In this document: in pieces, positions 8,304 to 27,228 of the stretch
Layout of the letters: each line of letters opens with the position of its first letter
Numbering within the stretch: position 1 is the stretch's first letter
From: Persicimonas caeni
GTDB lineage: Bacteria; Myxococcota_A; Bradymonadia; Bradymonadales; Bradymonadaceae
Length of the DNA stretch: 64,000 bases
NCBI RefSeq assembly: GCF_006517175.1
Contig: NZ_CP041186.1
Span: 1,887,001-1,951,000 of the forward strand
Reading direction: 5' to 3'
Notes under the pieces: model-generated
The model's input: the letters and a program-made list of their open reading frames with translations, nothing else
Database searches by the model: none
Told to the model about the DNA's origin: nothing
Translations under genes and position numbers: made by a program

Positions 8304-8341
8304 TCGCGCGCGCTCCGTTTCGTCATATCCACCGGAAAACC

Positions 8342-9154: not shown

Positions 9155-9169
9155 TGGGATTATGTCCCC

Positions 9170-9560: not shown

Positions 9561-9795
9561 GCTCCGGTCGCGCTACGCGCTCCCTGCGCAGGGGGCTATC
9601 GAATTGGGGATTCTGCCCTTCGGGCTCCAGAAGGCGGGCAAGATTGCCTCGAGCAGGGCCTGCGCCTACTCGACTCCTTGGCAACTCGCCTCAAAAGCCA
9701 CGCATGGCCAGACGTGCGAGGCCGCCATACGGCAAGCCCGTAGGGCGTAATCCCCTCTTTGATAGCCCCCTGCGAAGCGTAGCGGAGCTGGGGGA
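9554..9795. mobile_element. MITE-like element with long imperfect terminal inverted repeats
   Basis: The ends are near-complementary over about 45-50 bases. CCCCCAGCTCCG...CAGGGGGCTATC on the left mirrors GATAGCCCCCTG...CGGAGCTGGGGG on the right, continuing inward to GGGGATT and AATCCCC. The ~240-bp element has no plausible protein. It starts where the 41-bp tandem array ends. Its structure fits a non-autonomous mobile element or a large folded RNA. No target duplication was identified. Confidence 0.6.
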
Positions 9796-9920
9796 CTGAG
9801 GGATCCATTACAAGGACTACTCGACCGCCCTCGCACGTTGCCTCCTTGCCGCGAGCCTCTCGCACGTTACAATTCCAACCAACCTCCTCTTCACCGAACG
9901 CCATCTCAGCACCGAACGCC

Positions 9921-12142: not shown

Positions 12143-12164
12143 AATTAACAAGAATGTTAACTTT

Positions 12165-12189
12165 CGGTGCGGGGGCATCTCGCCCTCGT
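12165..12189. repeat. Single unit of the dispersed hairpin repeat
   Basis: One copy of the CGGTGCGGGGGCATC...GCCCTCG unit, with one change in the hairpin loop region, lies between the GMC gene and aroG. It belongs to the same family as the arrays at 13287, 40409, 52158 and 57021. Confidence 0.8.
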
Positions 12190-12218
12190 TTCCATCACTT
12201 TGGCCCCACATATATCCC

Positions 12219-13280
12219 ATGTTCCACACCACCGACGACCTTCGCATCAAAGGCCTTCGACCGCTCATCTCGCCGGCCATCTTGAGCGAGGAGCTGCCGC
12301 TGACCGAGCGCGCCTCCGAGACGATCGACGCCGCCCGAAAGACCGTGGCCGACATCATCGCTGGGCGCGACGACCGGCTGTTGGCGGTCGTAGGCCCCTG
12401 CTCCATCCACGACTCCAAGGCGGCCGTCGAGTACGCCGAGCGCCTCCGGGAGCAAGCCGAGCGCCTCGAAGACGACCTGTTCATCGTCATGCGCGTCTAC
12501 TTCGAGAAGCCGCGCACGACCATCGGCTGGAAGGGGCTGATCAACGACCCGGACATGGACCAGAGCTTCAATATCAACCGCGGGCTTCGCCTGGCTCGAA
12601 AGCTCCTGGTCGACCTGGCCGAGATGGGCCTTCCGGCCGGCCACGAGTTTTTGGACACGATCACCCCGCAGTTCATCGCCGACCTGGTGACCTGGGGCGC
12701 CATCGGCGCGCGCACCACCGAATCGCAGGTCCACCGCCAGCTCGCCTCGGGCCTGTCGATGCCCGTCGGGTTCAAAAACGGCACCAACGGCAACTTCCAG
12801 ATCGCCGTCGACGCCATGCGCGCGGCCAAGCACTCCCACCGCTTCATGGGCGTGACCAAGCACGGCATCTCGGCGATCGTGCAGACGGCGGGCAACGAGG
12901 ACACCCACATCATCTTGCGCGGCGGCAAGTCGGGCCCCAACTACGACGCCGAGCACGTCCAAAAGGCCGCCAAGATGCTCGCCGACGCCGGCGAATCCCC
13001 ACGGGTCATGGTCGATTGCAGCCACGGCAACAGCGGCAAGGTCCACACCCGCCAGCCCGGCGTCGCTCACGCAGTCGCCGAGCAACTCGCCGGCGGTTCA
13101 CAGGCGATCATGGGCGTGATGATCGAGAGTAATCTGGTGGAGGGGCGCCAAGACCTGGGCCCGCGCGAGGAGCTTTGCTACGGCCAGAGCGTCACCGACG
13201 CCTGCCTGGGCTTCGAGCAGACCGTGCCGGTGCTCGACGAGCTGGCGAGCGCCGTGCGCAAACGGCGCGAGCAGAGTTGA
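12219..13280 (+). CDS. aroG: 3-deoxy-7-phosphoheptulonate (DAHP) synthase, AroF/G/H type
   Basis: This 353-residue enzyme condenses phosphoenolpyruvate and erythrose 4-phosphate, the first step of the shikimate pathway to aromatic amino acids. Length and sequence match the class I AroF/G/H family. GPCSIHD near residue 57 is the signature, followed by VMRVYFEKPRTTIGWKGL and the catalytic-lysine/PEP region KNGTNGN. The C terminus has MVDCSHGNSGK and a metal-site segment near GVMIESNLVEG. The N-terminal NLRIKGL-type sequence (here DLRIKGLRPL) carries the feedback-sensing region in this class; which amino acid inhibits it cannot be read with confidence. It appears monocistronic and is followed by a hairpin-repeat array. 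Confidence 0.95.
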   Translation: MFHTTDDLRIKGLRPLISPAILSEELPLTERASETIDAARKTVADIIAGRDDRLLAVVGPCSIHDSKAAVEYAERLREQAERLEDDLFIVMRVYFEKPRTTIGWKGLINDPDMDQSFNINRGLRLARKLLVDLAEMGLPAGHEFLDTITPQFIADLVTWGAIGARTTESQVHRQLASGLSMPVGFKNGTNGNFQIAVDAMRAAKHSHRFMGVTKHGISAIVQTAGNEDTHIILRGGKSGPNYDAEHVQKAAKMLADAGESPRVMVDCSHGNSGKVHTRQPGVAHAVAEQLAGGSQAIMGVMIESNLVEGRQDLGPREELCYGQSVTDACLGFEQTVPVLDELASAVRKRREQS

Positions 13281-13286
13281 CCCCAT

Positions 13287-13404
13287 CGGTGCGGGGGCAT
13301 TTTGCCCTCGTTGACATCGGTGCGGGGGTATCTTGCCCTCGTCGACATCGGTGCGGGGGCATCTTGCCCTCGTCGACATCGGTGCGGGGGCATCTTGCCC
13401 TCGT
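13287..13404. repeat. Hairpin-repeat array, four units at 31-bp period
   Basis: Four units begin at 13287, 13318, 13349 and 13380. Each contains CGGTGCGGGGGCATCTTGC followed by CCTCG and a TCGACAT linker. The core GGGCA-TCT-TGCCC is a 5-bp stem with a 3-nt loop. The array starts 7 bp after the aroG stop and ends just before the convergent gene at 13420, so it may also end transcription. Units vary by single bases. Confidence 0.9.
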
Positions 13405-13419
13405 CTGCGAAATTGTTGT

Positions 13420-13749
13420 TCAGGGCTTGAGTTGCTCGAGCGCCAGGATGAGCGCACGCACCACGTCGGGCTGACGCTTGTAGAGGTCGGTCTCGATCTT
13501 GGTGCCGTCGGGCCCTTTGAGCCGACCCATCCACTGCTGGTCAGCCTTGAGCACGACCTGCAGCGTGAATCCGTCGACCTCGGCCTCGTAGGTCTCGAGG
13601 CCGTCGCGATCCTTCGTCCAAAACTTGGGGGTCACCCGCGTCCAGCCGGCCGGCAGCACCAACTCGAGCACGTGCAAGTGCACGTCGCGCGCGTCCATCT
13701 GGGCGGTCGTCTTGGTGCTGGGATCCTGGTTGTTGTCGTCCGAACTCAT
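13420..13749 (-). CDS. Hypothetical protein, 109 aa
   Basis: This is a small soluble acidic protein with no signal peptide and no recognised family. After a polar N terminus it forms an alternating strand/helix pattern: HVLELVLPAGWTRVTPKFW, DGLETYEAEVDGFTLQVVL, and a C-terminal helix QPDVVRALILALEQLKP. The ATG at 13749 is preceded by an AT-rich stretch that could hold a promoter. It faces aroG tail-to-tail with a repeat array between them. Size and spacing support a real gene, but no role can be assigned. Confidence 0.65.
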   Translation of the reverse strand: MSSDDNNQDPSTKTTAQMDARDVHLHVLELVLPAGWTRVTPKFWTKDRDGLETYEAEVDGFTLQVVLKADQQWMGRLKGPDGTKIETDLYKRQPDVVRALILALEQLKP

Positions 13750-13935
13750 CTAAGTAGGCCGTTGTTGGACAAGAGGCACGTGCGTGAGTGCAAAGACCTT
13801 TAACACCGTAGAGCGAGCCATCGCAAGACGGTTTATTTGGTTTTGTCGCACGAAGTGTTACCCGCCGTCGCATAATTAACACGCGACTGCTTCCATCAAG
13901 CTGACGACGATGGGTCGAGGAGCCAGCCCACGGGG

Positions 13936-14634
13936 CTACGCCCCCGCAAAGGCCATGCGCCCTCGGCGCAACAGATCTTCGAACCGACGCGAGAAATCGG
14001 CGAATTTCTCGCGTAACTCGAGCGGACCTTCGCCGCGCATGACCGCCAGGGCCACCGCCGCCCAGGGCGCCGCCGCGGCAAAGAGCGCCGAGAAGAAGAG
14101 CTCGTCACGCAGCCGACTCCCCGGCAGCGGCTTGCCGTCGAGCCGGGCGAGGAACGCGTCGAATGTGTTGGAGACTCCGTTGGCCACCGAGATCATGCGC
14201 GCCAGCGCCTCGATCAGATCGCGGTGGCGCTCGCCGAAGAGTTCGCTCGCCTCGACTTCGAAGTCGGGCGGCATGGGGCCAAAACCCTGGGCGGCGCGAT
14301 GGCGCGCGAAGAGCGCCGCCGCCCACCGCTCGAAGGGCACACCGCTGGGGTTGAGGCGCTCGATATGCTCGAGCTCCTCGGAGTCGACGCCGAGCTCCAA
14401 GGCCCACTCGCTGTGCATGAAGCTGCACCAGCGGCAGGCGTTCTCGAAGGAGACGGCGGTCAACACCTCCTCGCGGATTTGCGGGTCGATCTCGTCGCCC
14501 AGATAGGCGCCCACCAACGCGTCGACGTGGGTGACGAGCCAGCGCACGTCGCCTAAGAAACGACCGATCGTGTAGGTCTTGGAGGGATGGGGGCTATGAA
14601 ACCGAATCGAGCGGGCCTGTTGCTGTTCGAGCAT
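13936..14634 (-). CDS. AhpD-like / carboxymuconolactone decarboxylase-family protein
   Basis: This protein has 232 residues from the ATG at 14634. The segment SFENACRWCSFMHSEWALELG holds E64, C67, C70 and H74, the E...CxxCxxxH pattern of AhpD-type alkylhydroperoxidases. In those proteins the Cys pair relays electrons and the His/Glu relay protons. The C-terminal half is helical and resembles the second half of two-domain family members. An upstream ATG at 14706 would add residues with no resemblance to the family. It lies just downstream of the membrane sulfatase gene on the same strand, so they may be co-transcribed. The peroxide-reducing role is inferred from the motif. Confidence 0.75.
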   Translation of the reverse strand: MLEQQQARSIRFHSPHPSKTYTIGRFLGDVRWLVTHVDALVGAYLGDEIDPQIREEVLTAVSFENACRWCSFMHSEWALELGVDSEELEHIERLNPSGVPFERWAAALFARHRAAQGFGPMPPDFEVEASELFGERHRDLIEALARMISVANGVSNTFDAFLARLDGKPLPGSRLRDELFFSALFAAAAPWAAVALAVMRGEGPLELREKFADFSRRFEDLLRRGRMAFAGA

Positions 14635-14719
14635 ATCTTGAGCGGGGTGAGAGCCACGGAGTCGACGCCTGTATCGAGCGGTATGCACGTAACAAGCTGT
14701 AGACACGCGCGAGGTTTCG

Positions 14720-16663
14720 TCACCGCTTTTCGACGTACTCGAGGTAGGGCGCGAGGATGGGCGTGTCGGAGATCACCTCGTCGAGCCACCCTCGATCGGC
14801 CTCGGTGGGCGGCTCGCCGGGGCGCTGCGCGCTCCATGTGGTCGGATCGTTGGCGTCGTAGACGTGCAATCGCCCGAAACGGCGCCGGCCGTAGACGACG
14901 CGTTCTGTGCCGAAGACCGCAAAGCCGCTCTCCGGGCGAAGCCCCCAGCTGACCGTGTTGACGCAGTGGGCGGTGCGCTCGGGGGCGATGGGCGCGAGCA
15001 GCGAGTGGCCGTCGAGTCTGTCGAGGCCTTCGAGCCCCGCTTGGGCGGGCAGGTCGTCGACGCCCCACAGGTCGAGCACCGTGGGGACCACGTCGAGCGT
15101 GGAGGTGACGCGACTCGTGTTGGCGCGCACGGTCTGGCCGGACACACCGAGCCGGTCGGCCCACTTGTCGGGCAGGTACATGAACATCGGGATGGCGGCG
15201 ACCATCGGGTGGCACGAGCGCACCCGCAGCCCGTCTTGCCAGGTGTCGATCTGGCGATCGGCGAACAGGTTCTGGCCGCGATAGAAGAACGAGGAGTGGT
15301 CGGCCACGAACAGAATGACGGTGTCGTCGGCGCGGCCGGTGGCCTCGAGTGCGTCGACCATGTCCCCAAAAAACGCGTCGGTGAGCGCGACCGAGGCGTC
15401 GTAGCGCCCCTTCGGGTCGTCGATCGACCAGCCGACGTCCTCCTTGGGCAAGAAGGGAAAATGAGTGGTGTTGGTCTGCACGACGCCCAAAAACGGCCGG
15501 TCTTCGGCGAGCTCTTCGGTCAGCACCTCGACGACCTGCTCGGCGGCGAGCCTGTCGTCGACGCCGACGTCGTTGACGATGCTCGTGCCGATCGTCTCGG
15601 CGGTGATCACGTGGTCGGGCGGCCGGTCGAGCAACATGAACTCGTCCAAGCCGCGCCAGGCCCACTGCTGCGAGCTCACCAAGAAGGTCTGCGCGCCCAC
15701 GGCCTGGGCGTAGTGCCACAGCATCGGCGCGGTGTGCATCGTCTGGCGGTCGCGCGCCATCGACAGGCCGGTGAGCACCATGGGCACCGACAGGTCGGTA
15801 AACGCCGAGCCGGTGACCGCGCGCTCGAAGCGATAGACCTCGTCCGAATGCTCCTCGAAAAACCGCGCCATGCGGGGCGTCGTCTGGCGATCGTGGCCCC
15901 ACACCTGCATGCGATCGCGGCGCAGGCTCTCGGCGAGGAAGACGATGACGTTGGGGCGCGCTTGCTTGCCCGTTTGTTTGCCTATTTGATTGTCTTTGTC
16001 GTCGACCGGCTCGAGATCGGCGCGGTGGGCGACCCCGAGCGGGCGGGTCGCGCTGCCCGAGACGACGTCCTGCAGGCTGTGGGAGAGGACGTGGCTGGCG
16101 TGGAAGTCGGCGGTGAAGGGAGATTGGCCGACGGTGGCGTTGCTCGGCCACAAGAGCGCCGACATCACCCACGGCACAAACGCCATCCAAGCGCTGCGGC
16201 GAATGCCCGGCTCGACCGTGGTCGGCCCCATGCCGAGCACCAGCGCCCACAAGCCGCCCAGCCCCGAGATCGCCGCGGCGATGCCCAGCGAGAGGCGCCC
16301 GCTCATCATCCGAAACGACGAGGCCGGCTCTTGGAACAGATAGGTGGCCGCGCCGGCGGGAGGATCGAGGCCGACGACCAGGTTGAAGTGCCAGACCGCG
16401 GCGATGATCGAGGCGGCCGGAAAGGCCACCGCGCAGGCCCACACCCAGCGGCGCTCGCTGGCGGCGACCAGGCGGCTCAGGGCCCACCAGAAGACGAGCG
16501 ACAAGAGCAACGAGCCGAGCAGATTGGTCGGGCTGTGCTCGAGGTTGGGCGGCAGGCGCCCGGCGTGCCGAAAGACGAAATCGCCCAAGGCGATCGTAGC
16601 CGGGATGAGCACCCAGCTCGAGGTTCGAAAGATGTTGGAGAGAGTTGCCCGCGACACGTCCAT
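14720..16663 (-). CDS. Membrane-bound sulfatase/phosphoethanolamine-transferase-fold protein
   Basis: This 647-residue protein has about five N-terminal membrane helices (residues 15-200) followed by a large extracytoplasmic alkaline-phosphatase-superfamily domain. NVIVFLAESLRRDRM is the metal-binding and nucleophile region, with Ser or Thr expected after the Glu. TNTTHFPFLP and later FVADHSSFF carry the D-H metal ligands of sulfatase-fold enzymes. The layout matches LTA synthase-like, YejM-like and phosphoethanolamine transferase families, which modify lipids or envelope polymers. Which substrate it uses is not readable. The downstream AhpD-like gene may be in the same transcript. Confidence 0.75.
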   Translation of the reverse strand: MDVSRATLSNIFRTSSWVLIPATIALGDFVFRHAGRLPPNLEHSPTNLLGSLLLSLVFWWALSRLVAASERRWVWACAVAFPAASIIAAVWHFNLVVGLDPPAGAATYLFQEPASSFRMMSGRLSLGIAAAISGLGGLWALVLGMGPTTVEPGIRRSAWMAFVPWVMSALLWPSNATVGQSPFTADFHASHVLSHSLQDVVSGSATRPLGVAHRADLEPVDDKDNQIGKQTGKQARPNVIVFLAESLRRDRMQVWGHDRQTTPRMARFFEEHSDEVYRFERAVTGSAFTDLSVPMVLTGLSMARDRQTMHTAPMLWHYAQAVGAQTFLVSSQQWAWRGLDEFMLLDRPPDHVITAETIGTSIVNDVGVDDRLAAEQVVEVLTEELAEDRPFLGVVQTNTTHFPFLPKEDVGWSIDDPKGRYDASVALTDAFFGDMVDALEATGRADDTVILFVADHSSFFYRGQNLFADRQIDTWQDGLRVRSCHPMVAAIPMFMYLPDKWADRLGVSGQTVRANTSRVTSTLDVVPTVLDLWGVDDLPAQAGLEGLDRLDGHSLLAPIAPERTAHCVNTVSWGLRPESGFAVFGTERVVYGRRRFGRLHVYDANDPTTWSAQRPGEPPTEADRGWLDEVISDTPILAPYLEYVEKR

Positions 16664-16679
16664 GCCGCCAGCTTAATAG

Positions 16680-16747
16680 GCGCGGCCCCTGCCGACAAAC
16701 CGAGATGGCCTCGAATTGAGACGCACTCGGCTTGGCAGGGGCCGCGC
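16680..16747. terminator. Strong inverted repeat between yceI-like and sulfatase genes
   Basis: GCGCGGCCCCTGCC at 16680..16693 is the exact complement of GGCAGGGGCCGCGC at 16734..16747, with an inner CCGAG/CTCGG pair. It follows the 3' end of the minus-strand YceI gene and precedes the sulfatase start. It is a likely terminator or a folded boundary, although a clear T-run is absent. Confidence 0.6.
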
Positions 16748-16794
16748 AGCGTGCCGGTGAGGGGAGTCCGGCGAACGCATCTGTGACGAAGCGA

Positions 16795-17325
16795 TTACTC
16801 CTCGTCGGCCTTGGTCACCTCGGCCTCGACGACGATCTCGACCTTCTTGCCCACGAGGACGCCGCCGGTCTCCATCGCCTGGTTCCAGGTCAGCCCGAAC
16901 GCCTCGCGGTCGAGCTCTCCGGTCAGGCTGTAGCCGACCGACTTGCCGCCGAAGGGGCTCTTGACCGGGCCGAGCTGCTCGCCGGTCAGCGTGATCTCGT
17001 GCGTAGTCCCCTTGATGGTCAGATCGCCGGTGATCTCGACGTCGCCGTCGCCGGCGTCGCGAAAGCCGGTGCTCTCGAAGGTCATCGTCGGGTACTCGTC
17101 GGTCGCAAAGAAATCCGCCGAGCGCAGGTGGCCGTCGCGGTCGGCGTTGTTCGTGTCGATGCTGTCGACCTGCACGGTCACGCTGACCGACGAGTCCTCC
17201 AGGTTGTGCGGGTCGAGTCGAAGGTCGACGTCGAACTCTTTGAAGTCGCCGCGGACCTTGCTGATCATCATGTGACGGACGGCAAAACCGATCTTCGAGT
17301 GGGCTGCGTCAAAGTTCCAGCTCAT
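16795..17325 (-). CDS. YceI-family polyisoprenoid-binding protein (cytoplasmic form)
   Basis: The protein has 176 residues, the usual size for the YceI lipocalin-like barrel that binds long isoprenoid lipids. It begins MSWNFDAAHSKIGFAVRHMM, which matches the family start. Further family marks are HLRSADFFATDEYPTMTFES and the C-terminal LTGELDREAFGLTWNQA. The ATG at 17325 has a GAGGAG ribosome site; an upstream start would only add unrelated residues. No signal peptide is present, so it should stay in the cytoplasm, unlike E. coli YceI. It lies just downstream of the dnd genes in the same direction, but a gap of 165 bp argues against a shared operon. Confidence 0.9.
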   Translation of the reverse strand: MSWNFDAAHSKIGFAVRHMMISKVRGDFKEFDVDLRLDPHNLEDSSVSVTVQVDSIDTNNADRDGHLRSADFFATDEYPTMTFESTGFRDAGDGDVEITGDLTIKGTTHEITLTGEQLGPVKSPFGGKSVGYSLTGELDREAFGLTWNQAMETGGVLVGKKVEIVVEAEVTKADEE

Positions 17326-17490
17326 AATGTGCTCCTCGTGATGCCCCACGTGGGGGCCGTTGGTGGACAAGTTCGAGTCAAAGCTTCGGCACATTTGCCG
17401 AAGACGTTTCAACATTAAACTCCACCCCGAGGATCGTGTAGAGCGCGTTGCGAACTGGAGTGTTTCTAGTCAGAAACAAAGAACCGGCGT

Positions 17491-17874
17491 CTAGCCGTGA
17501 CTGCAGAGCTTGCGGGCCACTTCGATGAAATCGGCCATGCTGCGGACTTCTTTGACCGCGTAGAGGCGAGCGATCCCGCGATGCAGATGGAGGTGGAAGA
17601 TACGCGACCGATCGGCGGGGTCGACGCCGTCGCGATGGCAGCGCATGCGAAACATCGCCTCATAGATGTCCGCCTCGGCGCCCCCGAAGGTCTGCCAGGT
17701 CAACTCGACACCAGTGGCGCCGAGGTCGACGTCCGGCGGCGTGGTCGGATCGGCCAGCGAGACGCATAACGCCCAGCGACACAGGTGGTTCCACTGGCGC
17801 AGCCCGGTGCGCCGCTTGAGCACGATCAGTTCGTGGCGGCCGCGCTCGGAGATGTGGATGCGGTCGATACTCAT
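17491..17874 (-). CDS. dndE: DNA phosphorothioation protein DndE
   Basis: This 127-residue protein is the last member of the Dnd DNA-modification set, which swaps a non-bridging backbone oxygen for sulfur. DndE binds nicked DNA in known systems. The family pattern is clear: HISERGRHELIVLKRRTGLR, then WNHLCRWALCVSLADPT, VELTWQTFGG and FHLHLHRGIARLYAVK. Its ATG overlaps the dndD stop (ATGA at 17871..17874), so translation is coupled. The length is near the usual 110-130 residues. With DndC and DndD it should form the modifying complex. Confidence 0.93.
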   Translation of the reverse strand: MSIDRIHISERGRHELIVLKRRTGLRQWNHLCRWALCVSLADPTTPPDVDLGATGVELTWQTFGGAEADIYEAMFRMRCHRDGVDPADRSRIFHLHLHRGIARLYAVKEVRSMADFIEVARKLCSHG

Positions 17875-19853
17875 GTGGCGAAATACCCCGGCTCGATGCG
17901 AGTGGCCTGCGCTTCGTGGTCGAAACGCAAGCGATAGGATCGACTGATCGACGGCTCGAGCAGCTCCAAGTGATCGTCGACGATCTCCTCGTCGGTGGAC
18001 AACAAGATGACCTGTCGGCCGGCGTGCGGGAAATACCGAGAGACGAGCAGCTTGCGGTGCTCGGAGTCGAGCCGGCCCAAGGGCGTGTCGATCATCGTGG
18101 GAAGCGAGCGTCTGGCGCTCTGGGCGAGGCCCCAGAGCATGCTGACGCTCAGGACCTGACGCTCGCCGGCCGACAACACCTCCGGAGAAAACCGCTTGCC
18201 GCTTCGCTCGATGAGCGTCAGTTCGAAGTCGTTGGGATCGATGCGCACCTCGGCGACCAGATCTTCCTTGCGCAGCAGGTCGCGAAAAGCAGTGGTGATG
18301 CGGTTCTCGAGGTTGGCGAGGTTGCGCTCGAGGATGGCCCGCCGGAACTGCGCCAGTCCGCTCTTGAGTCGATTGCTGACGATGAGCACCCGCGCCGAAT
18401 CCTCTGCCTCGAACTCCGAGGCCACGCGGTCGCGCAACAGGCGGTCGAGTTTCTGCTCCGCGGCGGCCAATTGCTTTTCGACACGTCCGCGAGTCTCTTC
18501 GAGTTCGCCGAGGCGTTGCTCGGCCTCCTCGAGGCGGCCGCGGGCGCGCTCGCGCTTTTCGAAGACATGACGGATCACCTCCTCGTCGGGCACACGCTGC
18601 AGGTGTCGCTCGCGTTGTTCGATTTTCAAGTCTAGCTTCTCGCAGGCCTCGAGCAGGCCGTCGATCTGACGATCACACGAGCTGAGCGCCCCGTTGACCA
18701 GCGCGCGCAGGTGCTCGACCAACGTGGCCGAGTCACCCACGATCGGGTCGACGGCCTGGCTACGTTCGACGCGCTCGCAGCGATCTTCGCCCAGATAACC
18801 GGCGACTTGCTCGAGCTGATTGCCTTCGAGGCCGCTGCGCTCGAGGAAGTCGAGCAACCGGGCATCCCGCGACTCTAGAAGCTCGGCCACCAGCGCCTGT
18901 GAGGCGGACTCGTACTCTGCCTCGGCCTGGACGAGGGTCTGCTCGACCAGGTCGCTGACCAGCGCCAGCGGCCCAAAACGCGCCGTCTCCGAGCGCAGCT
19001 CGTCCTCGTGGCTCTCGCGAGCAGCCTTCGCCTCGCTCAGCTTGGCTTCACTCTGGGCCCGCTGTTCGTACTCCTCACCGCCCTTGCGCCGAAACTCGGC
19101 GTCGACCTTGTCGTAGAAGTGCTGCAGCTTTCGAGTCGTCCCCCGAGCCTCCTCGATCTGGGCGTCCAGCTCGCCGAGCTCCTCGCGCGCCCCTTCGAGC
19201 ACGGCTTGCACGTCGCGCAGCGCCTGGTCGTCGTGGTCGTCGCCCAGGCTCTGGCGCGTCTTGCGCTCGAGCACCGCGAGGTCGTCGCTGAGTTGGTCGA
19301 CCAGTCCGACGCCCATCAGGTGGGTCAGCGCCGTCGTCAACATGGCGCGCGTCTGGCGGCTCTCGGTGAAACGACGCACATGCTCGCCGTCGAACAGAAA
19401 CAGCTCCGAGATGGCAAGCGGCATGATCTGCTCCAACTCGCTCGCCCAGCCCTCGGCCGCGTCGGCATCGAGCTTGCCGTCACGATAGATCTGCAGCTCT
19501 TCGTAGACCTTGGAGCCCATCGCCGACCACTTGCGCACCACACGCACCTGCTCGTCGCGCCCCAGTTGCTGGAACTCGAATTCGAGCTCGATGCGCGCCC
19601 CCTCGAAGGGGTTGGCGTGGCGGTGAATCGCCTCGCGCAGGTAGGCGTGGTACGAGCTCTGGTCACGCTCGGCGAGCCGCGCGCGCTTGCCGTAGAGCAC
19701 CAAGCGCACCGCGTCGAGGAGCGTGGTCTTGCCGGTGCCGTTGAGCCCGCCTACCAGCACGACCGGCCGCTCGGTTGATTCTGGCCGCAGATCGATCTCT
19801 TGGCGCCCGGCGTACACCCCGAAGTTTTCTAGCACAAGACGCTTGAACAGCAT
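17871..19853 (-). CDS. dndD: DNA phosphorothioation ATPase DndD (SMC/Rad50-like)
   Basis: This 660-residue ABC-type ATPase drives the DNA-facing step of phosphorothioate modification. Residues 33-46 (LVGGLNGTGKTTLL) are Walker A. A long coiled coil from about 200 to 520 resembles SMC/RecN proteins. The ABC signature is VLSAGERQVLSVSML and Walker B is LPTMIDTPLGRLD. ELFLFDGEHVRRF is characteristic of DndD. The start MLFKRLVLENFGVYAGRQ is the standard N terminus for this family. It lies 62 bp after dndC and overlaps dndE. All motifs needed for ATP hydrolysis are intact. Confidence 0.93.
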   Translation of the reverse strand: MLFKRLVLENFGVYAGRQEIDLRPESTERPVVLVGGLNGTGKTTLLDAVRLVLYGKRARLAERDQSSYHAYLREAIHRHANPFEGARIELEFEFQQLGRDEQVRVVRKWSAMGSKVYEELQIYRDGKLDADAAEGWASELEQIMPLAISELFLFDGEHVRRFTESRQTRAMLTTALTHLMGVGLVDQLSDDLAVLERKTRQSLGDDHDDQALRDVQAVLEGAREELGELDAQIEEARGTTRKLQHFYDKVDAEFRRKGGEEYEQRAQSEAKLSEAKAARESHEDELRSETARFGPLALVSDLVEQTLVQAEAEYESASQALVAELLESRDARLLDFLERSGLEGNQLEQVAGYLGEDRCERVERSQAVDPIVGDSATLVEHLRALVNGALSSCDRQIDGLLEACEKLDLKIEQRERHLQRVPDEEVIRHVFEKRERARGRLEEAEQRLGELEETRGRVEKQLAAAEQKLDRLLRDRVASEFEAEDSARVLIVSNRLKSGLAQFRRAILERNLANLENRITTAFRDLLRKEDLVAEVRIDPNDFELTLIERSGKRFSPEVLSAGERQVLSVSMLWGLAQSARRSLPTMIDTPLGRLDSEHRKLLVSRYFPHAGRQVILLSTDEEIVDDHLELLEPSISRSYRLRFDHEAQATRIEPGYFAT

Positions 19854-19915
19854 GGTAAAACAACCTTTGGGAAGGCAAATGCTCCCGGCTTGGCTCGGTT
19901 ACGGTCGCCGCGGCC

Positions 19916-21376
19916 TTAGAGACCGGAACCACCACCCGCGCCCGATACCGCATCGTTGGCCTGTTGTTCTCGGCGGCTGCGATCGATGGCTGCCTCATCG
20001 TTGCGAAAGTGCTCGCGAATCTTGGCGTCGAGCGCCTCGAACAGCCCTGCGCGGCGCACCATGGTTTGATGCCGATGCTCGACCTCGAAGAGCGAACGTA
20101 CCAAGTCGAAACACTCCGGGCAGTCGGGCATCGCCTGTCGCAGCAACTCGAGCTCCTCGCGATCAAAGGGGATCGCCGAATCGATCTGGCTGCCGGGGTA
20201 GGCTTCGCCCATCTCTTCTTGCCAGATCAACGGGAGGCGATCCTCGATTTCGTGCTTCTCGACGACCCAAATGCGTCGGATCTCCTCGAGATGCTCCAAA
20301 GTGATCAACTCGGCGTACTCGCTGGCTTGGCCCCCATGCTCCTGCAGCGCACGCTGGGTCTGCAGCACCCGCCGGAGCCAGTAGGCGCGGCCGTCTTGGT
20401 CGTAGCCGCCGCGCACCGGGTTTCCGCTGTGCAAAATGACCCGTCCTTTGTGGCGACTGAGCTCTCGGTGGAGATCGTCGCGCTCGCTGAGCTCATCGCG
20501 AAGCTCGAGCAGAGGGCGCATCCAACCGTAGCGCGGCTCGTTAGCGATCATCGCGCGCATCGACCGATCTTCGGAGACCACGGTGCACACCCAACAGCCG
20601 AATCGACTGTTGCCGCAACTGGGCATGGCCGTATCGGCCACCAAGGGGCACTCGTGGTCGGCCGAAGCTCCGCGGTAAAGGTCCAGAAGACGCTCGTTAT
20701 CAATGCCTGCAGGGTTGCGATCCTGGAGCAAGTGCAGCCAGACGTCGTCAGTCGTCCAGTTTTCGATGGGCGTGTAGAGCAAGGTGCCCGGAGAGCGATC
20801 GTAGAGGCGCAGCGCGCGTCCGCGACGAAGGTGATTGCGGCTCGTGAGTGCCTTCTCGCGTGCCGCGCTCTCTGCGGTGCGCGAGCCGAGCACCAAGATG
20901 ACCTCTTGGTTGCCCGCGATCTGATCGCGCAAAAACTGTTCGGTGGGGCGGATCTTGAGCCGGTCGGTGCACCACCGAAACCGGGGCCCGGGGGCGGGAT
21001 AGCCTCGTCCGATCAAGTTGACCCAAAAAGAATCGTCGACATGCGGCTCGAGAATATGAGTGCGCACCGGCAATTGGGAGGCCGCGGCGGCCTGCTGAAT
21101 CTCGAGCATCGCCTCGCCGACCCACTGGCGCACCACCGGGTTCTCGACTCCCGTATCCACCGAAATGACCTCGATGGGGTTGGTCAACTCCTCGGGGGAG
21201 AGGTCGCTCAACGCACTCCACACCAGCTGGAGCGTCGCCGTCGAGTCCTTGCCGCCGCTGTAGGCGATTACCCAAGTGCTCTGACGAGACAGATACAGAC
21301 GGCGAATTTCGCGGCGCAGGTTCTGGAGCACAGATTTATAACCGTCTGTAAAAACGCTTCGCTCCGAATTTTTCAT
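19916..21376 (-). CDS. dndC: DNA phosphorothioation sulfurtransferase DndC
   Basis: This 486-residue PAPS-reductase-like protein activates DNA with ATP and delivers sulfur. The PP-loop STWVIAYSGGKDSTATLQLV lies near residues 35-54. Cysteines at HECPLV and SCGNSRFGCWVC fit the Fe-S cluster ligands of DndC. GPRFRWCTDRLKIRP is the conserved nucleotide-side segment. I chose the ATG at 21376 (MKNSERSVFTDGYKSVL), because residues further upstream look like untranslated leader. It heads the dndC-dndD-dndE operon, divergent from dndA. DndB, the usual repressor, is not encoded next to it. Confidence 0.94.
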   Translation of the reverse strand: MKNSERSVFTDGYKSVLQNLRREIRRLYLSRQSTWVIAYSGGKDSTATLQLVWSALSDLSPEELTNPIEVISVDTGVENPVVRQWVGEAMLEIQQAAAASQLPVRTHILEPHVDDSFWVNLIGRGYPAPGPRFRWCTDRLKIRPTEQFLRDQIAGNQEVILVLGSRTAESAAREKALTSRNHLRRGRALRLYDRSPGTLLYTPIENWTTDDVWLHLLQDRNPAGIDNERLLDLYRGASADHECPLVADTAMPSCGNSRFGCWVCTVVSEDRSMRAMIANEPRYGWMRPLLELRDELSERDDLHRELSRHKGRVILHSGNPVRGGYDQDGRAYWLRRVLQTQRALQEHGGQASEYAELITLEHLEEIRRIWVVEKHEIEDRLPLIWQEEMGEAYPGSQIDSAIPFDREELELLRQAMPDCPECFDLVRSLFEVEHRHQTMVRRAGLFEALDAKIREHFRNDEAAIDRSRREQQANDAVSGAGGGSGL

Positions 21377-21798
21377 ACATCTACCTCGACCACCGAAAAC
21401 CGTCGGGAGACGTAATCTGCCACGACAGATTACAGTCTCACTGAAATTCACTTCTCATGCTCTATTACGCATCTAGCTCGTCCCCCGTTGTATTGGGTGT
21501 TCTCTAGCGTCTAATTTCCAGAAATACTGAAATATTACATCTATACTGAATCATAATCACAACAATGTCTTTTGAAAAGCTGCACCGCAGAACGCCAGCG
21601 ATCTCGAGGCGTCTCCCTCGCGAATTCCAGGGCAGACCGCCACCGTCCAAAACGGGCAGCTCGATTCTCCATATAAGAAATTTGCCTTGAAATGCTCCGC
21701 GTCGGGCAGATTCATCATCTCATTGAGAAGAAGGAGGGTACGCGCCTCCCGTTGTTCTTAAGTAACAACATCATTTCGCAACGGAGAAGTGTTTGGCT
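21377..21798. promoter_or_regulatory. Divergent dndC/dndA control region with two dyads
   Basis: This AT-rich 422-bp gap separates dndC (minus) from dndA (plus) and must hold both promoters. A perfect dyad GTAATCTG-N6-CAGATTAC spans 21412..21433, 36 bp from the dndC start. A different dyad, GTTGTT-N7-AACAAC, spans 21751..21769, 29 bp before the dndA ATG. Between them is a very AT-rich stretch (21520-21560). The dyads look like operators for dimeric regulators, or 5' UTR stems. No dndB-like regulator gene is nearby, so the regulator, if any, would be encoded elsewhere. GGAGAAG at 21783..21789 is the dndA ribosome site. Confidence 0.5.
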
Positions 21799-22959
21799 AT
21801 GGCGGATTATTCCAAGCTTGGAGACGTCGAGGCCATCTACCTCGACTGCAACGCATCGACCCCGATCGATCCACGAGTCGGTGAGGCGATGTACGAGATG
21901 CTGCATCGAAACCCAGCCAATCCAGCTGCCAAAGTGCATGTGTATGGACAGAAGGCGAGCCGCGCGGTGGAGGCGGCCCGCGAACAGGTCGCGCTCTTGG
22001 TGGAGGCCCGTCCCGAAGAAGTCGTCTTTACCAGCGGCGCATCCGAGAGTGACAACCTGGCCCTCCTGGGATGGGCCGAGCGCGCTCATCAGCAGGGCAC
22101 AACCCATATTGTGTCGAGTGCCATCGAGCATGCGGCTGTCCTCGAACCCCTGAGACATCTGCGCGATCGCGGCTTCGAAGTCGACCTGATCGCTCCGGGG
22201 CCGGATGGTGTCGTCGCCGCCCAAGATATTCTCGACGCCGTGCGCCCCGACACCGGGCTCGTCTCCTTGATGCACGTCAACAACGTGATCGGGACCATCC
22301 AACCGATCGCCCAGGTCGCTGAAGGGCTCGCTGATCACCCGGCTCTCTTTCATGTCGATGGTGCTCAGGGCGCAGCCCATCATTTTGATGAACTTGCCGA
22401 TCCACGCATCGATCTGATCAGCCTTAGCGCTCACAAGATGTACGGGCCGCCCGGCGTAGGGGCACTCGTATGCCGCCGCGGGCCGAAGGGCCCGCCGATC
22501 GCGCCGCGAAGCTTCGGCGGTGAGCAAGAATACGGATTGCGACCGGGCACCGTGCCGGCGCCGCTGGTGGTCGGCTTTGGTGAAGCGGCCAAACTGTGTC
22601 GGCGCGAGGTGTCCGAGCGATTGGAGAAAAATCACACTTTTCGTCAGTCTCTCCTCGAAGGACTGGCTCCTCTGTCACCAATCTTCCACGGCGACCTCGA
22701 CCGCCAGGTTTTGCACGCCGTTTGCCTTTCTATTCCCGGCGTGCGCCAAAAAGCAGCTCTACTGCGACTTCGCGATTTGATCGCAGCCTCGACCGGCTCG
22801 GCCTGTAGTGCCGTAAGCGATCGTCCCAACCATGTCTTGAGCGCTATGGGAGTGCCTCACAGCCACATCGAAGAGTCGCTGCGCATTTCCTGGTGTCATA
22901 CCACGCCTGCAGTTGACTGGAGTCAGGTCGTAGCGCGGTTGGCGCCGCTTGCAGAGTAG
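21799..22959 (+). CDS. dndA: Cysteine desulfurase DndA (IscS-like)
   Basis: This 386-residue PLP enzyme takes sulfur from cysteine and passes it to DndC, starting the phosphorothioate pathway. IYLDCNASTPIDPRV is the N-terminal mark of DndA/NifS enzymes. The PLP lysine is K213 in SLSAHKMYGPPGVG. The persulfide-carrying cysteine is C336 in STGSACSAV. The His that contacts PLP lies in SSAIEHAAVL. I chose the ATG at 21799, nine bases after GGAGAAG, rather than the TTG six bases upstream. It diverges from dndCDE, as dndA does in several Dnd clusters. Confidence 0.93.
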   Translation: MADYSKLGDVEAIYLDCNASTPIDPRVGEAMYEMLHRNPANPAAKVHVYGQKASRAVEAAREQVALLVEARPEEVVFTSGASESDNLALLGWAERAHQQGTTHIVSSAIEHAAVLEPLRHLRDRGFEVDLIAPGPDGVVAAQDILDAVRPDTGLVSLMHVNNVIGTIQPIAQVAEGLADHPALFHVDGAQGAAHHFDELADPRIDLISLSAHKMYGPPGVGALVCRRGPKGPPIAPRSFGGEQEYGLRPGTVPAPLVVGFGEAAKLCRREVSERLEKNHTFRQSLLEGLAPLSPIFHGDLDRQVLHAVCLSIPGVRQKAALLRLRDLIAASTGSACSAVSDRPNHVLSAMGVPHSHIEESLRISWCHTTPAVDWSQVVARLAPLAE

Positions 22960-23337
22960 GTCGCCGAACTCATGTCAAAATCCGAGAACTTTAATCGCCG
23001 GACCCACACTAAACCACAAATCACACTATACTCACTTTAGCGATAGCGCGACGCTCTATCATCGGAGAATACAGGGTCACACCCCCCTCGTGGGGCGTTC
23101 GAAGGCGTTCACAAATCCGAGCTATGTCGCCTCTGGCAGACAAGAACATCTTGACGCTCCACAACCCACAGCAACATACTCACTGAGCACAACGCGCTTT
23201 TCTTACAATTTATCGGGAGGAGCCGTTTCCTTAGTAAACTCTTGATTTTACTAACTAAACGCGCCCTCCACTCGACCACATGACCGTGATTTCGCGTAAA
23301 CCCCATTAATCACAGTATGTCGTGAGTGGAGTATTCC
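22960..23337. promoter_or_regulatory. Intergenic region with an 8-bp dyad upstream of the TPR gene
   Basis: I see no gene in this AT-rich stretch. A perfect dyad TTAGTAAA-N8-TTTACTAA spans 23231..23254, about 85 bp before the likely start of the TPR gene. It resembles an operator more than a terminator, since the stem is AT-rich and no T-run follows. It also forms the boundary between dndA and the TPR/ABC-phosphatase/Roadblock cassette, which suggests that the cassette has its own promoter. Confidence 0.4.
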
Positions 23338-25239
23338 GTGCTTGGTCGAGTAGTACGAGCAGGGACAGTGGAACAAAGACTCGCCGACATATACAGCGAG
23401 GGCTCTACAGCCTCTCGTCACGAGAGCTCTGCGCAGCTCGAGCGGCTTTCTCAGCAGCGCCGGAATACAACCGGCGACCCATCTGACTGGATCGCGCTGG
23501 CCAACCGTCTCGAAGATCAGGGGCGCGCCGACGAGGCCGCCGATGCGCTGGCTCGAGCCGCCGGCATCGATCTGCGACACGGCCAGTTCAACCTGGCCCT
23601 CGAACGGCTCCAACGCGCCATCGAATTGGCCCCCTCCCGAGCCGCTTCCCACTACGAACTCGCCAAGACTCATCACCAGCTGGGCCGCTTTGCCCAGGCC
23701 TTCGACGCCTATGGTCGAGCGTATGAGCACTTTTCTTCAACGCAGCGCCGCAAGCGCTCCAAGGAAGTACTCGAACGGATGATCCGCTTGAAACCTGACG
23801 ATATTGAGCTGCACCTCGAGCGAGCCCGTGGCCTCGAAGAGGACGGCGAATTCAAGGACGCTCTCGACATCTATCGCCAGTGCGCCGACGAGCTGGAGCG
23901 TTCAGGAAGCACGGAGGAGTTTCTCGAGCTCACCGAGCATATGCTCGAGCTTGCTCCCGACCAACCCCACCTTCGGGCCAGGGTCGTCGATGCCTTGCTC
24001 GCCGAAGCCGATGCCTTTTTGAACTACGGGCTCGAGGAGCGCGCGAAGCAAGACATCGAGCGCGCGCTGACGCACGCCCCCGACTCGCTCCACGCTCATA
24101 TTCGCCTGGTCCGACTGTATGAACGTCTGCGTCAGCCGATGGCGTTCATCGACAGCGTCACCCAGATGGCGCGCGCTGCCCAGGGGGGTCGCGCCCTGGC
24201 AGCCAAAGCGCTGCGACGTGCGCAGGAGTGGATGGGCAGCTCCGAGCGCATCGATGCCCTCGCCGACAAACTGGAGGTTGACTTGAGTGACGTATCCGAA
24301 GAGCTGCCGCCTCAATTGGATTCCGACAGCGAGAGCGAGTTGGGTGACGAGGAGACCGCCCCACGCGACCAGACCATGCCGGCGTTCGCCCGGGAGTCGA
24401 CGCGCAACCATGGCGTCATTTTGGGCGGCGCGGGTCGCGCGCACAACTTGCTGACGCTGCTTCAAGCCGTCGAGCGCAGCCAAGAGCCGTCGCAGTTGCT
24501 CATCGAAGACGGCGAGGGAAACCCGATCGCCGAGCTTCGCGCCCGTGACCGGCGCTTGGAGGTGGGCCTGCGCCTGGACGGCGAGATCTTCGTCGACCGG
24601 TCGCTCAAGCGGGTGAGCACCGATCTCGCCGATCGTCTGGCTGATTCGGGCGCCAATGCCGACGCCTGCCTGACCACCTCGAACACCACCACCGGAGAGC
24701 GCTCGCAATTGTACCGGCTCACCGCCCGCGGGCTGGTCGAACTGGCCACCCGCGCCGAGTCGCAGCACTTCTGTTTGCGCTCGCGCAGCATGGAGCCCGC
24801 CGAGCACGATCACCTCTCCTTTTCACCGTTCGCGCTGACGCTGCGCGCTGCCGGCTACATGCATAGCGACACGAGCAAAGTCGCCGCACACTTCTACGAC
24901 AAGATGGGTGAATCGAGCGAAGAGGCTTGGCTGCTGGTCGACCCGGAGGATGGCTCGAAGATGTGCTTGCCGCTTCGTAGCGTGTCGACCACGCCGCTCA
25001 CGATCGCCGAGTTGCGCAAGCTGGGAAGACGAAGCTTCGAGATCCTCGAGTACAACCGCAAGACCCGCGAGGCGCTGGGGAGCCAGGAGACCATGTCGAC
25101 CAGCTTCTCGATGAACGGAGGGCTGTGGTGCGCAGTCAGCAGCGGAGCCCACCTGGCCCTGGTGCGCGCCGAGATGCACAAAATGGGCGCGACCCTGTCA
25201 CAGGCACGCTCGGCCACCAACTCCGGAGGTGAAGCATGA
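23338..25239 (+). CDS. TPR protein with unusual C-terminal domain (first gene of a possible new cassette)
   Basis: This 633-residue soluble protein has tetratricopeptide repeats over roughly residues 45-300: WIALANRLEDQGRADEAADA, AASHYELAKTHHQLGRFAQA, ARGLEEDGEFKDALDIYRQC and others. An acidic linker follows. The last 270 residues contain ILGGAGRAHNLLTLLQAVER and a segment resembling PATAN/DUF4388-type signalling domains. The far C terminus (GGLWCAVSSGAHLALVRAEM) could be Roadblock-like. The start is uncertain: GTG at 23338 has a GGAG site seven bases before it, and GTG at 23326 is an alternative. Its stop overlaps the next gene's ATG, so the two are coupled. It probably acts as a scaffold or sensor. 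Confidence 0.75.
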   Translation: MLGRVVRAGTVEQRLADIYSEGSTASRHESSAQLERLSQQRRNTTGDPSDWIALANRLEDQGRADEAADALARAAGIDLRHGQFNLALERLQRAIELAPSRAASHYELAKTHHQLGRFAQAFDAYGRAYEHFSSTQRRKRSKEVLERMIRLKPDDIELHLERARGLEEDGEFKDALDIYRQCADELERSGSTEEFLELTEHMLELAPDQPHLRARVVDALLAEADAFLNYGLEERAKQDIERALTHAPDSLHAHIRLVRLYERLRQPMAFIDSVTQMARAAQGGRALAAKALRRAQEWMGSSERIDALADKLEVDLSDVSEELPPQLDSDSESELGDEETAPRDQTMPAFARESTRNHGVILGGAGRAHNLLTLLQAVERSQEPSQLLIEDGEGNPIAELRARDRRLEVGLRLDGEIFVDRSLKRVSTDLADRLADSGANADACLTTSNTTTGERSQLYRLTARGLVELATRAESQHFCLRSRSMEPAEHDHLSFSPFALTLRAAGYMHSDTSKVAAHFYDKMGESSEEAWLLVDPEDGSKMCLPLRSVSTTPLTIAELRKLGRRSFEILEYNRKTREALGSQETMSTSFSMNGGLWCAVSSGAHLALVRAEMHKMGATLSQARSATNSGGEA

Positions 25240-26552
25240 AGCCGGTGGCTACGATCAACAATCTGAGCGTGCGCTTTGGCACCAAGACCGTGCTCGACGG
25301 CGTCGAACTCGAAATCCTCCCCAACGAAGTGTTGGTGTTGATGGGACCGGGCGGCGCGGGCAAGTCGACGCTGCTTCGCACCATTTGTGGGCTGAACAGC
25401 CAACTGAGCCATTTTTTGGTCAGCGGCGAAGTGCGCTATCTCGACCAACCCATTCAGCTCGACATCCACTCGCCACGGGGGCTCAGCCCGGTGCTCGTCC
25501 AGCAAAAGCTGGCCCTGCTCGCTTCGACGGTCTTCGAGTACCTGGTGACCAACTTTCCGTGCCGCTCCGACTTCACTCGTCTGGAGTTGCGCGAGCAGCT
25601 CGAGCAGCGCCTGGATGACGCCGGCATGGGCGACCTGCCCGACGGGCTCGACACCCAGGTCACTGCGCTGAGCGCCGGCCAACGGGCGATCATCGGAATC
25701 TTGCGCGCCTGCCTGCCGATGCCGGCACTCGTGTGCATCGACGAGCCCACCGCCGGCATGGACGACGATCAGGCCCAGATGGTGCTCGACTATATCGACC
25801 GTCAGTCGGCCGAGCGCGCCGTGTTGCTGGTCACCCACAACCAGCGCCGCGCCCGCAACGTGGGCGACCGCACCGCGCTGCTCGCCGGCGGGCGCATCCA
25901 GGAGTGCCTGCCGACCGACAAATTCTTCGAGTCGCCCGAGACCGACGCGGCCCGCCATTATATCCGAACCGGAGGCTGCACGGTGCCCTCGCCCGACGCC
26001 GATCCCGAAGAGCTCGACCCCGCGTTCCGCGTCCCACAGGCCGCGGTGGTCAATCCGCCCAAGCGCGCCAAAGAGGGATTCATCTCGGCCCATCAAGGCC
26101 CCACGGGGTTCGATTGGTTGATCCCCGGCCAGCTCGGCGGCACGCCGCTCCCGGGCGTCAGCGGCCACATCGACCGCGATCTCGAGGCGCTCCAGCGCGT
26201 GGGCACGACCGCCTTGGTCACGCTGATGCTGACTAAGCTCCCCGCTGCCAAGATGCGCGAGTACGGCATCGAGAGCTTGCACTTTCCCATCGTCGATATG
26301 GAGGCGCCCGAGATGCTCGACGCCGCCGATCTTTGTCGCCTGGTCGACACGCGGCTGTCCGACGGAGGGACCGTCGTCATGCATTGCAAGGCGGGCATCG
26401 GGCGCACCGGCACCATGCTGGCCGCCTACCTCATTTGGAAGGGGCAGACGGCCGCCGAAGCCCTCGACGCGGTGCGCAGCGTCAACCCGCGGTGGGTTCA
26501 GTCGCAAACACAGGAAAAGTTTCTTGAAGAGTTCGAGCTCTGGCTCGACTAA
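25236..26552 (+). CDS. ABC ATPase fused to a dual-specificity/CDC14-like phosphatase
   Basis: This 438-residue two-domain protein is unusual. Residues 1-225 form a complete ABC ATPase: Walker A GPGGAGKST (37-45), a Q-loop with Q89/Q90, signature LSAGQ (145-149), Walker B ALVCIDEP and H-loop H201. It resembles PstB-like import ATPases, but no permease gene is nearby. Residues 300-438 form a protein-tyrosine/dual-specificity phosphatase: HCKAGIGRTG (H383, C384, R390) is the HCx5R site, and D354 in FPIVDMEAPE is the likely general acid. Both active sites look intact. It overlaps the TPR gene by ATGA. I know of no described protein with this exact pairing, so its role is open. Confidence 0.85.
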   Translation: MKPVATINNLSVRFGTKTVLDGVELEILPNEVLVLMGPGGAGKSTLLRTICGLNSQLSHFLVSGEVRYLDQPIQLDIHSPRGLSPVLVQQKLALLASTVFEYLVTNFPCRSDFTRLELREQLEQRLDDAGMGDLPDGLDTQVTALSAGQRAIIGILRACLPMPALVCIDEPTAGMDDDQAQMVLDYIDRQSAERAVLLVTHNQRRARNVGDRTALLAGGRIQECLPTDKFFESPETDAARHYIRTGGCTVPSPDADPEELDPAFRVPQAAVVNPPKRAKEGFISAHQGPTGFDWLIPGQLGGTPLPGVSGHIDRDLEALQRVGTTALVTLMLTKLPAAKMREYGIESLHFPIVDMEAPEMLDAADLCRLVDTRLSDGGTVVMHCKAGIGRTGTMLAAYLIWKGQTAAEALDAVRSVNPRWVQSQTQEKFLEEFELWLD

Positions 26553-26572
26553 CGGCACCGCCACGGTGTCAC

Positions 26573-26595
26573 GGAAGCTCGATGGTCGAGCTTCC
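26573..26595. terminator. Hairpin between the ABC-phosphatase and Roadblock genes
   Basis: GGAAGCTCGA-TGG-TCGAGCTTCC is a perfect 10-bp stem with a 3-base loop, 21 bp after the ABC-phosphatase stop and 33 bp before the next ATG. Only AATTTACT follows, so it may be a partial terminator, attenuator or mRNA-stability stem that sets the level of the Roadblock gene. Confidence 0.6.
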
Positions 26596-26627
26596 AATTT
26601 ACTACAACACCCGCAAGGAGTAGCAGT

Positions 26628-27032
26628 ATGTCACTTGATTCGGCTCTGCAGGCAGGCGTCAAAGAAATCCCGGAATGCGTCGCTGGCGGCTACGTCGACA
26701 TGTCCACGGGCATGTTGCTCGGCGTCAAAACCGTCGAGTCGCACCCCCAGGAGGTCCTCGACCTTGTCGCCGCGGCCACCGCTGACATGTTCCAGGGTAA
26801 GAACGTCTCGGCCATCGAGAGCATGTTCAAAAAGTCGCGTGGTCTCGAAGACGACGGTCACCACTACTTCCAAGAGATGATCGTTTTCAGCGACAACCTC
26901 ATCCACGTGTTCCAGCGCTGCAAAAAGAACACCGACCACGCCGTTGTATGGGTTTGCGGCAAGTCGGCCAACATGGGCATGGTGCTCACCAAGGCCCGCA
27001 TGAACCTCGCCGGCGTCGAAGACGCGCTGTAA
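26628..27032 (+). CDS. Roadblock/LC7-like protein, 134 aa
   Basis: This small soluble protein begins with an amphipathic helix (SLDSALQAGVKEIPEC). GGYVDMSTGMLLGVKTVE then resembles the first strands of Roadblock/LC7 domains. A long helix over the middle (LVAAATADMFQG) and the strand pattern LIHVFQRC...AVVWVCGKSANMGMVL complete the profilin-like fold expected of the family. Such proteins bind small GTPases or scaffold signalling complexes; here no GTPase gene is adjacent. A strong AAGGAG site precedes the ATG by eight bases, suggesting high expression. It is the third gene of the TPR/ABC-phosphatase cassette and ends in its own terminator. Confidence 0.7.
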   Translation: MSLDSALQAGVKEIPECVAGGYVDMSTGMLLGVKTVESHPQEVLDLVAAATADMFQGKNVSAIESMFKKSRGLEDDGHHYFQEMIVFSDNLIHVFQRCKKNTDHAVVWVCGKSANMGMVLTKARMNLAGVEDAL

Positions 27033-27058
27033 GCGCCCTTCGCCCGACCGAGATACAG

Positions 27059-27103
27059 ATACCCCGCGCTGCGCCCTTCCGGGCCGCGCGGGGTATTTGT
27101 TTT
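27059..27103 (+). terminator. Rho-independent terminator after the Roadblock gene
   Basis: ATACCCCGCGC pairs with GCGCGGGGTAT across a loop of about 16 bases that itself can pair (GCCC...GGGC). TTGTTTT follows directly. It closes the TPR/ABC-phosphatase/Roadblock cassette. Confidence 0.85.
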
Positions 27104-27228
27104 GGGGCAGAGCGTGTTGGCGCCCAGAAACACGGTGTTTCCAGCCGGCGGCTTGATTCGGCGGTTCGCCTTCGCCTATGGGTTGAAGCGTCCTGTTCTT
27201 CGAATGACTCCTTCACGATGGGTGGCCC

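Follow-up and report, generated by a model that had tools for sequence, protein, structure and literature searches.

What do the three plus-strand genes that lie directly after the dnd modification locus of Persicimonas caeni encode, and do they belong together? We address these questions in a window of 64,000 nucleotides, C1:1887001-1951000 of this 8.05-Mb single-contig genome. The genes code for a tetratricopeptide repeat (TPR) scaffold protein, an ABC ATPase fused to a dual-specificity-type phosphatase (ABC-DSP), and a small protein with a predicted Roadblock fold. We found that the arrangement recurs in other genera, in other families and in one other phylum, and that this recurrence is more than chance. 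The core of the cassette is the pair of ABC-DSP and Roadblock genes, with the TPR protein as a variable partner. The cassette has the look of a branch, not described so far, of the signalling apparatus by which bacteria elsewhere govern cell polarity.

Conservation and co-occurrence of the core pair

Relatives were compared by locus, each carrying an L-number as its label (L014, L045 and so on); many of the genomes are drafts, and gene calls in them are mechanical, anchored by tblastn. Among 379 genomes sampled across the phylum (Myxococcota-level), twenty-eight carry the Roadblock protein, mostly at over 60% identity. With the phosphatase profile set at 1e-46, twenty-five of the 379 have both genes, three have the Roadblock only and none has the close phosphatase only (Fisher 4e-36; 5e-29 at 1e-35). 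Within the order, ABC-DSP-type matches with E below 1e-40 occur in eight of the twenty-six genomes.

The neighbourhood tables contain thirty-one close Roadblock loci (at least 60% identity, the window and L014 included), and a phosphatase match falls in the same stretch at twenty-six of them. At 22/31 of these loci the ABC-DSP gene immediately precedes the Roadblock gene on the same strand. Close Roadblocks (61-64% identical) were also found in 4 of the 398 genomes sampled from the phylum of the Thioglobus record, with ABC-DSP directly upstream in all four. Over twenty-three loci, mean identity is 66% for the Roadblock protein versus 38% for ABC-DSP, and the distances of the two proteins correlate (Mantel r 0.58), as expected for a co-inherited unit. 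The original prediction supposed a shared function for all three genes and proposed asking whether they co-occur and keep their order. For the second and third genes this stands, given the Fisher result (25 of the 28 Roadblock-bearing genomes), the adjacency and the natural fusions described below; the TPR gene varies.

Further afield, no Roadblock was found at E 1e-10 in 301 genomes from the phylum of the Chloroflexi record or in 40 from that of the Sumerlaeia record, searches that had no positive control and so show little. The genomes of named relatives that were searched gave weak or single-domain matches only, and the four genomes behind them had no such Roadblock.

The ABC ATPase-phosphatase

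The ABC-DSP gene (25236-26552, plus strand) encodes 438 amino acids, with an ABC ATPase at residues ~4-245 and a dual-specificity-type phosphatase at ~290-433. Pfam identifies the first as ABC_tran (1e-20, residues 20-173) and the second as Tc-R-P (1e-23), PTP-SAK (7e-15) and DSPc (3e-10, residues 290-433), and NCBIfam is consistent with this reading. The phosphatase HCX5R loop reads HCKAGIGRT, and Cys384, Arg390 and the general-acid Asp354 are invariant among homologues. An alignment of twenty-three homologues shows conserved Walker A, Q-loop, Walker B and H-loop motifs, with K43 of the P-loop, Q90, D169-E170, H201, C384 and R390 invariant or nearly so. The LSGGQ signature, by contrast with these motifs, has decayed in twenty-two of the twenty-three aligned members (LTGVE, LSLVE, LPKPE and similar). 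Two loci (L058, L062) have tandem ABC modules: the P-loop is retained in ABC1, whose signature has decayed, and is lost from ABC2, which still reads LSSEQ at the signature; this split fits the need of a single asymmetric ATP site.

No membrane segment is predicted, and outside the ATPase core we found no stretch hydrophobic enough for a membrane helix. In the neighbourhoods of relatives, neither a permease nor a substrate-binding protein turns up repeatedly next to ABC-DSP. Among NCBIfam models, the ABC domain scores best with the PstB phosphate-transport ATPase (1.5e-38), at 132.6 bits against a cut-off of 343. ABC-DSP thus resembles PstB-type ATPases in its best-scoring model, but it differs from them in falling far below that cut-off, in its fused phosphatase, in the decayed signature of its family and in the lack of a Pst permease in the cassette. 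Compared with ABC transporters in general, it has the four ATP-binding motifs but neither a family-wide LSGGQ nor an adjoining permease. Because of the decayed signature, the tandem split of P-loop and signature, and the lack of a recurring permease, we favour an ATP-dependent switch over a transporter motor.

The fusion is single-copy in its own genome, where twenty-eight other matches cover essentially the ABC part only. Second copies of ABC-DSP occur in some other cassette-bearing genomes (L147:7520-8824, L148:8364-9932 and L149:7336-8784).

The Roadblock protein

The third gene (26628-27032, plus strand, preceded by AAGGAG) encodes 134 amino acids. Its AlphaFold model, built on an alignment of forty-nine sequences, has a pLDDT of 92.2 and the order helix, two strands, helices, three strands, helix, which is the topology of the Roadblock fold. 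The nearest structures in Foldseek are a Streptomyces avermitilis Roadblock/LC7 protein (E 6e-8) and MglB (1e-7), with MglB from both Thermus and Myxococcus, Ragulator subunits and MglC also close. From these model-based comparisons we are confident in predicting a Roadblock/LC7 fold for the third protein.

Sequence models do not recognize it. The protein has no convincing Pfam match and no NCBIfam family, and a sequence search of the PDB gave no match. A whole-genome search with PF03259 (Robl_LC7) found four other places, one of them adjoining MglA, and not the cassette gene. As a sequence-model criterion only, this marks a divergent family and does not exclude the fold. The Roadblock protein is also the most conserved member of the cassette, at about 60-64% identity across phyla.

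A second copy, 84% identical, lies in the same genome at L014:6343-10865 (C1:4855342-4859864). It is downstream of a gene for a shortened TPR protein (286 amino acids, with the C-terminal Roadblock-like domain kept and no ABC-DSP) and upstream of a PAS histidine kinase and a receiver-Hpt protein. More distant Roadblock genes, ~33-37% identical to that of the cassette and often in tandem, occur in small genomes (L109, L111, L115, L116), and a small GTPase with an AGKTT or SGKTT P-loop is close to them in L109, L111 and L116.

The TPR scaffold protein

The first gene extends over 23326-25239 on the plus strand (637 amino acids from the first GTG) and was assigned from Pfam TPR matches, AlphaFold secondary structure and homologues in the family. 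The GTG at 23338, eight nucleotides after GGAG, is a likelier start than the first GTG at 23326, and it is also where the original prediction placed the beginning of the cassette. Pfam finds TPR_14 (4e-12), and the AlphaFold model predicts a TPR superhelix at residues ~52-318, a mixed, PATAN-like region at ~358-512, and a Roadblock-like topology (helix, two strands, helix, three strands, helix) at ~518-631. Profile comparison of this C-terminus by hhalign gave a probability of about 1% for a Roadblock domain, so homology was not confirmed. Since the sequence-profile proof failed, the putative C-terminal Roadblock domain rests on predicted topology. Whole-model searches with Foldseek and VIA-align were filled by TPR proteins and so did not probe the C-terminus.

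Residues 358-512 have no Pfam match to DUF4388, the PATAN family, and the hhalign match of this region to neighbours with DUF4388 is weak (E 0.0085 but probability 4.7%). Thus, of the TPR/PATAN-like label in the original prediction, the TPR half is supported and the PATAN half is weak. The domain reading was otherwise supported, with Pfam agreeing for the first two genes and the predicted fold for the third. The TPR protein is less conserved than its partners, at 22-29% identity over its full length within the family. This form of the cassette occurs in its own genome and five others of the family; the C-terminal part is found more widely.

Fusions and wiring in relatives

Outside the TPR form, the gene upstream of ABC-DSP differs or is fused to it. 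At L058, L062 and L060 the Roadblock gene adjoins a single open reading frame of 1192-1963 amino acids, whose product combines a PATAN-like N-terminus with two ABC modules and the phosphatase.

In seven genomes (L063, L064, L065, L069, L070, L073, L076) the Roadblock gene has an MglA-like GTPase no more than a few kilobases away. Six aligned GTPases from these neighbourhoods have an AGKTTN P-loop, VPGQ and NK-D motifs (NKQD) and a C-terminal extension. The original prediction saw no GTPase nearby, which is right for the window cassette and does not extend to the family. Other Roadblock neighbours in some relatives include genes for PATAN proteins (DUF4388, with clear Pfam matches), receiver-PATAN-Roadblock proteins and metallophosphoesterases. 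The operon at L065 runs from a hybrid kinase through a receiver-DUF4388-Roadblock protein, a Roadblock, a PATAN-type protein, an MglA-like GTPase and a metallophosphoesterase to the ABC/DSP region. Operons of this type connect the cassette with the PATAN, Roadblock and MglA signalling systems that PMC4316618 surveys. MglA itself does not track the cassette, because MglA-like matches occur in 25 of the order's 26 genomes, both with and without it. The P. caeni genome has an MglA-like GTPase at C1:3687056, a Robl_LC7 protein at C1:3688006 and a second GTPase at C1:3889930.

At four loci from two families of the phylum, a 2Fe-2S ferredoxin/FAD/NAD reductase gene follows the Roadblock gene (L047:3854-5404, L049:11859-13436, L068:10826-12433 and L045:4595-5506), and in three of them the reductase is fused to a bacterial-type globin.

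Layout and RNA elements

An ATGA overlap at 25236 joins the end of the TPR gene to the start of the ABC-DSP gene. The gap before the Roadblock gene (26553-26627, plus strand) contains a stem-loop, GGAAGCTCGA-TGG-TCGAGCTTCC, and the AAGGAG ribosome-binding site; 26550-26627 folds at -30.1 kcal/mol (z = -4.13). A significant hairpin is also present at this position in three relatives (L046, L047, L048). It is not significant in the gaps of the other relatives, and its sequence is not conserved. A strong intrinsic terminator closes the set at 27053-27103 on the plus strand, with a GC-rich stem, TACCCCGCGC...GCGCGGGGTA, followed by TTTGTTTT; 27033-27110 folds at -44 kcal/mol. The three open reading frames, the overlap, the hairpin before the third gene and the terminator are all as originally described.

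The dnd locus and defence

Does the cassette have anything to do with the adjoining dnd genes? The original prediction had raised a possible role in defence and proposed testing for association with dnd beyond chance. In the order, dndC is present in three of twenty-six genomes and the cassette in ten, and only the P. caeni genome has both (Fisher p = 1). We found no DndA or DndC in the cassette neighbourhoods of relatives, where DndD is matched only once, by a short stretch of ATPase. The dnd link is rejected on these grounds, and dnd is a chance neighbour of the cassette.

A defence role found no support in PADLOC, phages or viral contigs. PADLOC gave only generic ATPase similarities for ABC-DSP, among them a weak one to mad3, and none for the TPR or Roadblock protein. 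ABC-DSP has no match on plasmids or in phages, and the Roadblock protein has no homologue in phages or viral contigs.

The dnd locus itself (17491-22959) comprises dndE-dndD-dndC on the minus strand, divergent from a cysteine desulfurase gene. The desulfurase scores 400 bits against the NCBIfam DndA cut-off of 480, and in PADLOC it matches SspA slightly better than DndA.

Comparison with described systems

No fitting named system was found, and the literature searched, to which the phosphatase-superfamily survey by Burroughs and Aravind did not belong, yielded no published description of the cassette. This agrees with the original view that the combination matches no described pathway. The rhodanese-phosphatase survey by those authors is said to be the likely source of the Tc-R-P and PTP-SAK families, and it may already mention an ABC-phosphatase fusion.

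The Myxococcus polarity module (MglA/MglB/MglC) shares with the cassette a small Roadblock-fold protein and, in relatives, a nearby GTPase of the MglA type that carries the VPGQ and NKQD motifs. It differs in that the window cassette has no cognate GTPase, its Roadblock is too divergent for Robl_LC7, and its constant partner is ABC-DSP. The conservons of actinobacteria (CvnABCD) are, like the cassette, small operons of a Roadblock, an NTPase and signalling partners (PMC13343842; PMC4316618). Of the four conservon components only the Roadblock (CvnB) is shared with the cassette, which has no histidine kinase (CvnA), CvnC or GTPase (CvnD). A survey of Ras-like GTPases in bacteria (Wuichet and Sogaard-Andersen 2014, PMC4316618) links PATAN proteins with MglA/MglB homologues in PATAN-Roadblock neighbourhoods, and the same linkage appears around L064, L065 and L069. 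The main text of that survey does not contain the word 'phosphatase', and ABC proteins appear in it only as excluded sequences.

Ruegeria megaplasmids (NZ_CP065362, NZ_CP045385; L083 and L084, ~8300-21250) carry an unstudied-looking cluster in which a 40% identical Roadblock lies amid four proteins of the dynamin family; a Ser/Thr kinase, an FHA protein and a PP2C phosphatase come next. These clusters resemble the cassette in setting a Roadblock among NTPases and phospho-signalling genes and differ in that the NTPases are dynamins, not ABC-DSP.

A proposed mechanism and its alternatives

Our preferred, still tentative, reading is that the cassette proteins form a soluble signalling module of the Roadblock/PATAN type in the cytoplasm, with an ATP-gated phosphatase as its output; we rate it close to an even chance, on the lower side. 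It builds on the domain content, the conservation of catalytic residues, the co-occurrence, gene order and fusions, the Roadblock fold and the lack of a predicted membrane segment. We infer that the Roadblock protein would dimerise and dock on an NTPase, its constant partner being the ABC ATPase, which would serve as a switch whose conformation depends on the bound nucleotide and not as a transporter motor. ATP binding and release would gate the fused phosphatase, and this in turn would dephosphorylate some target, in all likelihood a protein with a signalling role. The target would be recruited by the product of the variable scaffold gene (here TPR with PATAN-like and second Roadblock-like regions, elsewhere other input domains), and in some relatives the same module may be wired to an MglA-like GTPase. 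More speculatively, the Roadblock dimer could control an ABC ATPase that has abandoned transport and whose nucleotide site opens and closes the phosphatase, so that an ABC-class NTPase and not a small GTPase is regulated; we consider this possible, with about one chance in three.

Several observations weigh against the preferred reading. Roadblocks without ABC-DSP occur at L014, L054 and L071, and the second ABC-DSP copies at L147-L149 have no Roadblock within the stretch examined. One version (L061:10144-13491, 1115 amino acids) has two ABC modules, both without Walker A, and no phosphatase; this pseudo-enzyme adjoins a Roadblock, which is kept. The window ABC alone keeps a near-canonical signature, LSAGQ, and the Mantel correlation is also expected from shared phylogeny alone. 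For the TPR protein, profile comparison did not confirm either of two predictions from topology, a second domain of Roadblock type and a PATAN-like region, and the interaction within the complex and the phosphatase activity are likewise predicted.

The Roadblock protein might instead be a GAP or co-GAP, similar to MglB or MglC, of an MglA-type GTPase encoded elsewhere, with ABC-DSP as effector or modifier in a polarity or motility pathway. MglB and MglC are indeed among its nearest structures, extended MglA-like GTPases lie near it in seven genomes, and nearly every genome of the order, P. caeni included, has an MglA-like match. We think this unlikely, as MglA is also present in genomes without the cassette, the window cassette has no GTPase, and an MglB-like gene already adjoins MglA. 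That the ABC module is an importer or exporter ATPase with its permease elsewhere, the phosphatase and Roadblock tuning transport, would suit the intact ATP-binding motifs and the similarity to PstB; the score far under the PstB cut-off, the decayed LSGGQ, the tandem forms with a lost P-loop and the lack of a recurring permease or substrate-binding protein make it improbable.

Two further explanations begin from neighbouring genes. The ferredoxin-reductase-globin enzyme downstream of the Roadblock at L045, L047, L049 and L068 (globin domain in three, two families) might be controlled by, or work with, a Roadblock complex in a redox- or nitric-oxide-linked module, but it is absent beside the window cassette and beside most others, which leaves this only a slim prospect. 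The slimmest is an anti-phage or conflict system, possibly tied to the adjoining dndEDC and dndA-like genes; one of the Pfam phosphatase families is named after polymorphic-toxin systems and there is the generic mad3 similarity, but the distribution of dnd and the lack of matches in phages, viral contigs and (for ABC-DSP) plasmids speak against it.

Implications

Work on bacterial Roadblock proteins has dealt mostly with their partnership with MglA-like GTPases. A Roadblock family that is over 60% identical between phyla and tied to ABC-DSP suggests that the fold has a second use, as yet unstudied, and the natural fusions, decayed signatures and lost P-loops of its partner yield sharp, directly testable predictions. 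The tie between the two proteins also points to a missing branch of bacterial phospho-signalling.

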